DNA from: an uncultured Haloferula sp.
Lineage (GTDB): Bacteria; Verrucomicrobiota; Verrucomicrobiae; Verrucomicrobiales; Akkermansiaceae
Assembly (NCBI GenBank): GCA_946885645.1
Contig: CAMPGU010000168.1
Location: 1-8,890, forward strand
DNA: 8,890 nucleotides
Reading direction: 5' to 3'
Part shown: positions 4,133 through 5,936 of the stretch, piece by piece
Numbering within the stretch: position 1 is the stretch's first letter
Layout of the letters: the number at the start of each line of letters is the position of its first letter
The notes under the pieces: generated by a model
What the model was told of the DNA's origin: nothing
The model's database searches: none
Seen by the model: the letters and a program-made list of their open reading frames with translations, nothing else
Translations under genes and position numbers: made by a program

Positions 4133-4993
4133 ATGGAAGCCTGGCAGGAAGAGCGCCGCACGCTGGAAGAAGAGCTCGGCGAGCGCATCACGCTCGACGC
4201 CCTCACGGGCCCGCAAGGCCTCTCCGGCCGGGAACCGCTGCTCGATGACGCGGGAGGTGTGGCCGGCTGGCTGATCGCCCAGCGGAAGAAGGGGCACCGC
4301 CACTCGATCGACGACGTGCTGACCGCCTGGTACGCCTTGGAGAACTCGCCGCAGGTCGCGGAACATCTGGATCTCGGTACCGGCATCGGCACCGTCGGCC
4401 TGCTTACTCTCTGGGGCATGGGACCTGCCGCCCGCCTCACCTGCGTGGAGGCGCAGGAAATCAGCTACCGGCTCCTGCAGGCGAATCTCGATGCCAACGG
4501 GCTCCGCTCGCGGGTGGACTGCCGCCACGGCGATCTGCGGGAGCTGGCGCTGGACCGGAAACTCCCGCTCGTCACTGGCAGTCCGCCTTATTTTCCGGCG
4601 CATGCCGGCGTGGTTCCGCAGGATTCGCAGAAGGCCCACGCGCGCTTCGAGCTGCGCGGGGATGTCTCGGACTATGCCCGCGCCGCGGTGCGGCACCTCG
4701 CGCCCGGCGGCTGCTTCGTGCTGTGCTTTCCCTTTCCCCAGAAGCAGCGCGCGCTCGATGGCATCGCCGCCGCCGGACTCGCCACGGTGAAGCTGCGCGA
4801 CGTGATCCCGCGCGAGTCCCTCGCGCCGCTTTTCACGCTCTTTGTCTGCCGTCATGCCGCGGAAGCGGGCGGGGGAACCGAGGTCGAGGAACCATTCGTC
4901 GTGCGCGAGCAGAGCGGCCGGCTGACCGCGCAGATGGCCGCGGTCCGGCGGCGCTTCGGCTTCCGCGACGGCGCGGCCCACGGGGGACATTGA
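4133..4993 (+). CDS. SAM-dependent N6-adenine methyltransferase, TrmN6 (YfiC)-like
   Basis: A 286-residue class I methyltransferase. The SAM-binding motif I is HLDLGTGIGTVGLL (residues 78-91), followed by the acidic loop CVEAQEISYRLLQANL. Motif IV is SPPYF (150-154), the N6-adenine type of (N/D/S)PP(Y/F), here with Ser where E. coli TrmN6 has Asn. Before motif I, KKGHRHSIDDVLTAWYA (53-69) matches the family's substrate-side segment. After motif IV, HARFELRGDVSDYARAAVRHLAPGG is the usual TrmN6/HemK-like continuation. The likely substrate is A37 of a tRNA (tRNA-Val in E. coli), but other RNA or protein targets are possible, so no symbol is given. Its first 45 residues are less conserved. The ATG at 4133 is 14 bases after the yjdM stop and has GGGAG four bases before it, one of the few plausible ribosome sites in the window. 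Probably co-transcribed with yjdM. Confidence 0.8.
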   Translation: MEAWQEERRTLEEELGERITLDALTGPQGLSGREPLLDDAGGVAGWLIAQRKKGHRHSIDDVLTAWYALENSPQVAEHLDLGTGIGTVGLLTLWGMGPAARLTCVEAQEISYRLLQANLDANGLRSRVDCRHGDLRELALDRKLPLVTGSPPYFPAHAGVVPQDSQKAHARFELRGDVSDYARAAVRHLAPGGCFVLCFPFPQKQRALDGIAAAGLATVKLRDVIPRESLAPLFTLFVCRHAAEAGGGTEVEEPFVVREQSGRLTAQMAAVRRRFGFRDGAAHGGH

Positions 4994-5009
4994 GGCCGCT
5001 CAAGGCAGG

Positions 5010-5028
5010 GACGGCTCTCCGAGCCGTC
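5010..5028. repeat. Strong GC-rich hairpin 3' of the methyltransferase gene
   Basis: Arms GACGGCTC and GAGCCGTC pair perfectly over 8 bp around the loop TCC, 17 bases after the methyltransferase stop. No T-run follows on the + strand, so it is not a classical intrinsic terminator. It may slow 3' decay, or be a palindromic repeat of its own; it shares no sequence with the REP-like pair 80 bases on. Confidence 0.55.
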
Positions 5029-5106
5029 TGGCTTCTGGCGGCCGTCGCCGGATTCCGGCCGCCCCAGCCGGCCTTTTCGGCGATAGGCCCCTGCCATGCA
5101 TGGCGA

Positions 5107-5133
5107 TAAGGAGCAGCGACATTCTTGTCGCTG
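5107..5133 (+). repeat. REP-like palindromic element, left copy
   Basis: A 27-base element made of TAAGGAG followed directly by a perfect hairpin with arms CAGCGACA and TGTCGCTG and loop TTCT. A short conserved tetranucleotide (GTAG or GGAG) just 5' of a palindrome is the known signature of REP sequences linked to RAYT (TnpA-REP) transposases. Its inverted partner is 23 bases to the right. The gap lies between two convergent genes, the usual site for REPs. A perfect 12-bp palindrome, GCCATGCATGGC (5093-5104), sits two bases before it. Confidence 0.75.
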
Positions 5134-5156
5134 GCAGGGGGCGCGCCGAAGCACCT

Positions 5157-5183
5157 CAGGGACAGGAATGTCCCTGCTCCTTA
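5157..5183 (-). repeat. REP-like palindromic element, right copy (inverted)
   Basis: Read on the - strand, this is TAAGGAG followed by a hairpin with arms CAGGGACA and TGTCCCTG and loop TTCC. It matches the left copy at 24 of 27 positions. Two of the three differences are the two partners of one base pair (C-G in the left copy, G-C here), so the stem is kept; the third is in the loop. The two copies point toward each other, giving a REPIN/BIME-like doublet. It ends 39 bases beyond the stop of purC and may also protect or end that transcript. Confidence 0.75.
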
Positions 5184-5222
5184 CGGCTTCGCGTGAGCAG
5201 CAGGATGAGAAGCAGCGACCCG

Positions 5223-5936
5223 CTACTTCACCGCTACCTTCACGCGCTCCAGCACTTCGGCGTAGGCTTCCATCACCCCGCCGAGATCGCGGCGGAAGCG
5301 GTCCTTGTCCATCTTCTCGCCGGTCTTGAGGTCCCACAGGCGGCAGCCGTCCGGGCTGATCTCATCCGCCAGCACGATCGTCTCCGGATCGGTGGCGAGA
5401 CGGCCGAACTCCAGCTTGAAGTCCACCAGCTTCAGCCCGCATTCGGCGAAGAACTTGCCCAGGATGGCATTCACCTTCAGCGCGGATTCGCGGAGAAACG
5501 CCAGCTCTTCCGGCGTCGCGAGCTTCAGTTCGCGGATGTAGTCGTCGTTCACCAGCGGGTCGCCGAGTTCGTCGCTCTTGATGCAGAACTCGATGATCGG
5601 CTGTGAGAATTCGCGGCCCTCCTCGATCCCGGTGCGCTTGCAAAAGCTGCCGGCGGATAGATTGCGGATGATCACTTCCACCATCAGGATGTCCACCTTG
5701 CGGACCTCCACGTTGGTGTCGTCGATCTGGCGGACGAAGTGCGTCGGCACGCCTTCCTTTTCCAGGAAGCCGTAGATGAGGGTGCTGATGGCGTTGTTGA
5801 GCCGCCCCTTGTTTTCGAACTGCGCCTTCTTCTCGCCGTTGAAGGCGGTGGCGTCGTTCTTGAACTCCATGCGCAGCACGTCCGGGTCTTCGGTGGCCCA
5901 GAGGCGTTTCGCCTTTCCCTCGTACAGCGGTTCCAT
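5223..5936 (-). CDS. purC: Phosphoribosylaminoimidazole-succinocarboxamide synthase (SAICAR synthetase)
   Basis: A 237-residue cytosolic enzyme, exactly the E. coli PurC length. It joins CAIR and aspartate with ATP hydrolysis to form SAICAR in de novo purine synthesis. It starts with the family's LYEGKAKRLW (residues 4-13) and then shows DATAFNGEKKAQF, the GRLNNAISTLIYGFLEKEGV helix region, VEVIIRNLSAGSFCKR, the signature PIIEFCIKSDELGDPLVNDD, LVDFKLEFG, and LADEISPDGCRLWD near the aspartate/metal site. All expected blocks are present, so it should be active. The ATG at 5936 gives the family start; the frame stays open upstream but reads into the neighbouring gap. It begins 44 bases after the beta-helix gene on the same strand, with no terminator in between. 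A TTGACC hexamer (5966-5971, - strand) is there but without a clear -10. No other pur gene is adjacent. Confidence 0.97.
   Translation of the reverse strand: MEPLYEGKAKRLWATEDPDVLRMEFKNDATAFNGEKKAQFENKGRLNNAISTLIYGFLEKEGVPTHFVRQIDDTNVEVRKVDILMVEVIIRNLSAGSFCKRTGIEEGREFSQPIIEFCIKSDELGDPLVNDDYIRELKLATPEELAFLRESALKVNAILGKFFAECGLKLVDFKLEFGRLATDPETIVLADEISPDGCRLWDLKTGEKMDKDRFRRDLGGVMEAYAEVLERVKVAVK

Follow-up and report, generated by a model that had tools for sequence, protein, structure and literature searches.

REPs are defined in the accessible text of PMC3686654 by a GT[A/G]G tetranucleotide with a palindrome, and the search rules in that of PMC6006769 were derived from 66 described families, all of them GTAG or GTGG; the REPs listed in the accessible text of PMC2817692 also carry GTAG or GTGG. 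In the REPINs or BIMEs of Pseudomonas and E. coli, hairpins occur as inverted pairs with a short spacer, mostly in intergenic sites, in several to dozens of copies and flanking RAYT genes. These properties are shared by the element described here, which differs in its guide tetranucleotide, GG[AG]G where theirs is GT[AG]G, and in its short, perfect 8-bp stem without a bulge. With 1 to 41 copies in the genus concerned it is less numerous than usual REPs, for which the accessible text of PMC2817692 gives more than 100 per genome. With the TnpA proteins of IS200/IS605 elements (IS608, ISDra2) the system has in common the fold class and the logic of a hairpin with a 5' guide tetranucleotide, but it differs from them in that its repeat is non-autonomous and its proteins have the class 2 Y---NP motif.

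REPs are already known in Verrucomicrobia. The GTAG superfamily, which according to the accessible text of PMC3733652 includes GTAG-17, -19 and -20 of O. terrae, shares with the present element the phylum, tagged palindromes, dimers and insertions in genes. In contrast, its tags are reported there to degenerate to GYAG, GYRG, GTRG and GTMG, never with G at position 2, and GTAG-20 has mostly GTGG. As a separate word, 'GGAG' is absent from the accessible texts of PMC3686654, PMC6006769, PMC8266576, PMC3733652 and PMC2817692 (figures and supplements aside), and our literature searches found no paper title on GG-guided REPs (subscription papers and supplements aside). The original prediction had taken GGAG for a known type of REP tetranucleotide, which has to be corrected, since REPs are defined by GT[AG]G in the accessible parts of PMC3686654 and PMC6006769 and GGAG is unusual. 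Its remark that REPs are little described in this lineage needs qualifying, in view of the O. terrae GTAG families (PMC3733652, accessible text). What sets the element apart is its GG[AG]G guide class, which lies outside the definition published in the accessible text of these papers.

The doublet and its copies in related genomes

The element lies in the window, a stretch of 8,890 nt from an uncultured Haloferula sp., between a methyltransferase gene with a small domain (Pfam MTS; 4133..4993, + strand) and purC (SAICAR synthase; 5223..5936, - strand), the latter converging on it. Exactly as had been predicted, two inverted 27-nt arms at 5107-5133 (+) and 5157-5183 (-) face each other between convergent genes; they are 89 % complementary and separated by a 23-nt spacer (5134..5156), which was delimited by the repeat search and by comparison with elements of the genus. 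Both arms consist of TAAGGAG, an 8-bp stem and a 4-nt loop. The left unit has the stem CAGCGACA/TGTCGCTG and the loop TTCT, the right unit the stem CAGGGACA/TGTCCCTG and the loop TTCC; the two stems are thus unlike each other, with compensating changes. The guide-like tetranucleotide GGAG at the foot of the hairpins (5110..5113 on the + strand and 5177..5180 on the - strand) was conserved also when it was left free in the search. The pattern GGAGCAGNGACATTCNTGTCNCTG, with up to three mismatches allowed, matched the window twice, both times exactly, and did not occur in 200 dinucleotide-preserving shuffles of the window. Folded as single-stranded DNA, positions 5100-5190 reached -29 kcal/mol (z -6.5; 0 of 200 shuffles equally good), the minimum-energy fold being a single long hairpin joining both arms.

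Two further repeats were seen in the same gap. At 5204-5219 (+) there is a partial copy of the left unit, GATGAGAAGCAGCGAC, with an 88 % match to 5105-5120, which is probably a decayed REP half. A REP-like unit of another family, GCAG with the 9-bp stem GGACGGCTC/GAGCCGTCT, is found at 5005-5029 (+); copies of this family recur in the related genomes G082 and G026, one of them with GTAG (L337).

Of 18 genomes from the genus to which Haloferula sp. BvORR071 (G001) belongs, 16 had a match to the purC of the window, the best being that of G001 itself (91 % nucleotide and 96.6 % amino acid identity). Based on this similarity, the window most likely comes from a species of the same genus, and all figures on copy number and RAYT linkage given here come from the genomes of relatives. 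When genome contigs were searched with the unit, at least 119 stretches matched; among those listed, 95 were from Verrucomicrobiota, 12 had no phylum, four were from Acidobacteriota, three from Armatimonadota and one each from five other phyla, and Aminicenantes is named among them. In three Aminicenantes loci (L041, L049, L056) GGAG hairpin units of about 27 nt stand in direct tandem, all in one orientation, and do not form inverted doublets. Twenty genomes picked from the matching ones all had copies by construction, with none of the reversed pattern. Among 195 genomes drawn from the family, 10 had the exact pattern (reversed control 0 in 195), with 18 copies in Roseibacillus persicicus (G002), 13 in G039, 10 each in G001 and G026, five in G015, three in G082, two in G166 and a single copy each in G020, G057 and G149. 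In the genus of G001, 11 of 18 genomes had the TAAGGAG form with at most one mismatch (reversed control 0): 41 copies in G082, 24 in G143, 21 in G026, 13 in G001, 12 in G057, eight in G147, three in G066, two each in G048, G111 and G103, and one in G138. Many of these copies have GACACTC in place of GACATTC, a variant which the pattern permits. Viral contigs gave no match to the strict unit pattern and 37 stretches with one match apiece to the loose pattern; the latter come without a chance estimate and serve as a contrast set only.

The tag was then read without being fixed: with the retrieved matches excluded, GGAG stood at the foot in 24 of 35 cores and at least three of four outer pairs were formed in 33 of 35. 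In the viral contrast set 37 of 41 cores have GGAG because the pattern required it, and 30 loci from the Y1_Tnp search gave a single core, tagged GAAG. In place of the GT[AG]G of the REP definition (PMC3686654, accessible text), GGAG was found in both window units and in 37 of 41 elements from the window, G001, G026, G082 and G057, preceded by TAA in 32. The palindrome directly 3' of the tetranucleotide was present as the 8-bp stem, which covaries: an alignment of 31 units, 30 of them distinct, has standard pairs in 97.9 % of the pair cells, and 43 stem cells are changed on both sides, compared to 13.3 in shuffles, with none of 500 shuffles reaching as many. A register with TAAG as the guide, with extra bases before the stem as in pseudomonads, was rejected, as G002 conserves GGAG and not TAA. 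Where two elements are at most 160 nt apart, 13 of 16 pairs are inverted in the orientation of the window, with spacers of 13-36 nt, and as in the window the stems of the two units are mostly unlike. Many elements of the genus have perfect stems, and single units and degraded copies also occur.

The copies in relatives are many and mostly intergenic. Among 23 sites in G001, G082, G057 and G026, 10 lie between convergent and 11 between tandem genes, none between divergent ones, one within a gene and one at an edge, so that 21 of the 22 sites with context are intergenic; genes were called by codon usage trained on the genes of the window, in loci which were fetched around the elements and are 77 % gene-covered. 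In five loci (L246, L249, L262-L264) the TAA of TAAGGAG is at most two bases from a called gene end, and therefore some insertions may supply or overlap a stop codon.

Comparison of orthologous loci revealed differences between species in presence of the element. A doublet of G001 (L246) is situated between convergent genes, and the orthologous junction in G026 is present without it; with flank identities of 79 % and 83 %, the breakpoints are not exact to the base. Downstream of purC the window has its doublet and G082 a single GGAG-GACATTC unit, and none was found at the other 15 of 16 orthologous loci compared, the sequence of one (L324) ending after 100 nt. As purC is adjacent to the methyltransferase gene in none of 30 loci (28 with the methyltransferase; flanks of up to 1.5 kb), the doublet of the window could be compared on the purC side only. 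Another doublet of G001 (L243) was considered as a clean insertion within a gene and rejected, the site being a variable linker in nine orthologues. At the equivalent spot G138 has a TAAGGAG doublet with another stem, resembling the REPs of its own RAYT (L297). In this gene and its orthologues (L307-L316) doublets with different stems thus occupy the same spot in G001 and G138, and G057 and G082 have hairpin remnants; the linker may have received repeated insertions, or an old element may have been converted.

RAYT proteins and the guide tetranucleotide

The RAYT proteins of these genomes share MPNHxH, WQ...D...R and YIxxNP. In a 17-row alignment (A1), MPNH-x-H and the Y and N of Y---NP are invariant and the P is conserved in at least 90 %, and the HUH motif and Y---NP signature of class 2 TnpAY1 are therefore present. 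The NCBIfam family REP_Tyr_transpos (NF047646) was the top family for each of five proteins, with 52-78.7 bits, in all five below the cut-off of 80. The best PDB match of the RAYT profile was 4ER8, the E. coli RAYT in complex with a REP hairpin (E 2.7e-8), with E. coli WQPRFWEHAIR aligned opposite the guide motif. An AlphaFold model of one RAYT (L135; pLDDT 83) also had 4ER8 as its top fold match (rank 1, E 1.7e-6, probability 1.00, TMt 0.50, rmsd 7.7). HUH, Y---NP, W-Q-...-R and the best fold match are common to these proteins and class 2 TnpAREP (PMC6006769, accessible text; 4ER8). The differences are in the guide motif, where the present proteins mostly have D-R or D-T in place of E-H (E. 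coli) or D-H, and in a long N-terminal region (LPHW, FxTFRLxDSxP), together with the sub-cut-off score of the NCBIfam model. A homologue search with the L135 protein gave 1389 homologues at E <= 1e-10. One source gives some close homologues the name 'type I restriction enzyme R subunit', although in most cases the Pfam domain listed for them is Y1_Tnp, and this is likely a misannotation.

Flanking units were assigned by a similar hairpin on both sides within 400 nt, at 75 % identity, with the tag G[GT][AG]G and in any orientation. Matching pairs were found at 31 of 65 and 21 of 46 RAYT ORFs, compared to none among 41 control genes and none among 174 mock genes, and the units are tagged GGAG, GGGG, GTAG or GTGG. 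The first RAYT tree contained 55 of 74 ORFs, duplicates and ORFs with ambiguous flanks (L284, L289, L290, L375, L386) being omitted; its 35 labels were assigned by hand and include L305, which is truncated and ambiguous, and L219, with both hairpins on one side. On this tree guide base 2 changes twice (once without L305), compared to a mean of 11.8 and a minimum of 7 in 300 shuffles, and guide base 3 changes five times, a number equally low in 1 of 300 shuffles. In a second tree (109 rows, 50 labels) base 2 changes three times (200 shuffles: mean 16.3, minimum 12).

By computation, guide base 2 goes with one residue. With L305 omitted, all 17 GT rows have H directly after the D of WQxxxxDx, and all 17 GG rows have R, T or S there. 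A rule was fixed ahead of the new RAYTs, His meaning a GT guide and any other residue a GG guide. The 46 ORFs of set 1 came mostly from the class of G005. In this set, for which the expression that reads the residue was settled once the tags were visible and the rule was left unchanged, His went with GT in 11 of 11, and the non-His proteins had GG in six cases, GT in two and mixed tags in one; the remainder were one GT case without a readable motif and 25 ORFs without an assignable call. Three motif rows of this set were misanchored (L231, L232, L404); read correctly, L232 and L404 stay in the same class, and L231 has no assignable tag. Set 2 was taken from the genus of G001 and comprised 19 ORFs; here His went with GT in 3 of 3 and non-His with GG in 8 of 8, with eight ORFs lacking an assignable call. 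The rule was thus right for 28 of 30 unambiguous new RAYTs, the exceptions being two of the 16 unambiguous non-His RAYTs, which have GT guides; one further protein is mixed. A refined rule, suggested by set 1, which also demanded Tyr at motif position 5 for GG, was broken by L455. According to the accessible text of PMC6006769, in subclasses 2.5 and 2.7, whose guides are GT[AG]G, H101 is sometimes replaced by R, and the His rule is therefore not universal.

In the trees, from which the 19 ORFs of set 2 are absent, the GG-guided RAYTs are on one side of one branch, except for L437. Common descent could therefore explain the switch of the residue, and can explain most of the guide-residue association. 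It is possible, if somewhat less than probable, that the GG or GT guide is unrelated to the His101-equivalent residue and that both do no more than mark an old split of the RAYTs into two branches: one to three changes on the trees mean few independent events, and three further alignment columns split the GG and GT groups just as fully. Against this stand the 28 correct prospective calls and the position of the column within the region of W94, Q95, E100, H101 and R104 of E. coli TnpAREP, residues which the accessible text of PMC6006769 discusses for GTAG recognition; L437, on another branch, may be an independent GG case, with a hairpin of low complexity. With modest confidence, we lean towards a RAYT branch that reads GG[AG]G, in Verrucomicrobiota and also in Aminicenantes and Methylomirabilis, in which guide base 2 was switched by replacement of the His101-equivalent and its motif neighbours. 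The RAYTs of GG elements fall mostly in one branch, with a guide motif that is typically WQxxYxD[RT]xxR, compared to WQxESxDHxxR in GT[AG]G relatives, so that guide base 2 has gone from T to G along with a change of the residue equivalent to E. coli His101.

The second repeat family of the window adds a different guide. A RAYT-profile match in G026 (L459, G026:C1:529800-532200; ORF 626-1315) lies between inverted copies of the GCAG family (728 + and 1374 -), the stems of which are compensated, and its protein has the motif WQRDYFDHRVR, i.e. His together with a pyrimidine at guide base 2. Judged from these motifs, His at this position seems to go with a pyrimidine at guide base 2: T, or C in the sole GCAG case.

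Linkage to RAYT genes and origin of the element

Y1_Tnp was present in 18 of 20 genomes, a set picked from unit-bearing ones, and a RAYT was inside just two of the at least 119 listed unit-bearing stretches. Inverted copies flank the RAYTs L232, L254, L453 and L135. Beside the RAYT of R. persicicus (L232) the adjoining copies are GGAGCAGGGACATTCCTGTCCCTG, identical to the 24-mer of the right unit of the window, and the RAYT of G149 (L254/L294) has a stem of the window type on one side and an inverted near-copy on the other. At L135, inverted GGAGGGGGGACATTCCTGTCCCCC units are at distances of 4 and 55 nt. Two RAYTs with such flanks belong to the genus of G001. The one in G082 (L298), with the hairpin GACACTCC, has two GACACTCCTGTC units that point the same way and are not inverted; the one in G066 (L453), with GACATTCC, has four CATCGACATTCCTGTCGATG units tagged GGGG, which form one inverted pair on either side of the gene. 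In G018 a RAYT-like gene is split between two frames and adjoins several GGAG hairpins (L236/L174).

The arrangement of a gene flanked by inverted copies of the unit was thus found in relatives, and it was not found in G001 and G026. The element was beside none of nine RAYT-profile matches in G001, none of five in G026 and none of the four strong ones in G143. The RAYT-profile matches of G001 and G026 have GTAG, GTGG or GCAG units or no matching pair in their flanks, and both genomes are rich in the GACATTC form of the element. In part of the genus the element may therefore be a RAYT orphan.

Taken together, we are highly confident that the feature is a REPIN-type non-autonomous element most likely placed by a RAYT, because of the computed copies in relatives, the covarying stems, the intergenic sites, the presence and absence between species and the flanking of RAYT genes. 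The original reading as a REP doublet moved by RAYTs is borne out by the dispersed, mostly intergenic inverted doublets of the relatives and their linkage to RAYT genes. The element consists of two inverted REP-like units, each with a GGAG guide at the foot of an 8-bp hairpin, and its placement is most likely due to a RAYT. RAYTs are Y1 HUH nucleases that act on single strands and are relatives of the IS200 transposases. In a single-stranded state, e.g. on the lagging-strand template, each unit would fold; the RAYT would read the GG[AG]G guide and the hairpin and cut beside the hairpin, and the pair of units would be copied or moved, settling mostly downstream of genes. Cleavage and movement, as well as the role of the residue in the guide switch, are what we infer from sequence comparison.

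It is unlikely, though it deserves consideration, that the RAYT has been lost and that the genus now has only decaying, immobile fossil REPs, which at most act as a 3'-UTR hairpin. The unflanked RAYT-profile matches of G001, G026 and G143 agree with such a loss, as do the single and degraded units and the partial copy at 5204-5219, but the same-genus RAYTs of G082 and G066 have near-identical REPs, many copies have perfect stems, and most of these genomes are split over many contigs, where the gene may be missed. That the doublet is a bidirectional terminator of the convergent genes, selected in place and not mobile, would suit the strong fold, the site between convergent genes and the 10 of 22 convergent sites in relatives, but this was rejected as very improbable, since window positions 4900-5300 hold no intrinsic-terminator-like site (GC stem followed by a T run; sigma-70-like sites also 0), just one of 16 purC orthologues has such a unit downstream, and the same unit recurs at many unrelated loci, once within an open gene.

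Implications for REPs and RAYTs

REPs are defined and searched for by two features, of which the guide tetranucleotide is one, and if the GG[AG]G-reading branch is real, surveys based on GT[AG]G would miss the GG-guided class. In the accessible text of PMC8266576, on Marinomonas REPs, guide mutants are described together with a cross-pairing model in which CT is paired by A3G4 and CA by T2G4; by this model GG guides would still permit cuts at CT, with CC replacing CA. A further class of guides, matched by a change in the transposase, would offer a simple way to test how DNA is read by RAYTs. In Verrucomicrobiota genomes there are natural pairs with GGAG, GGGG, GTAG, GTGG and GCAG guides, sometimes several in one genome, and the recognition code is therefore testable by single-residue swaps in environmental proteins of an ordinary kind.
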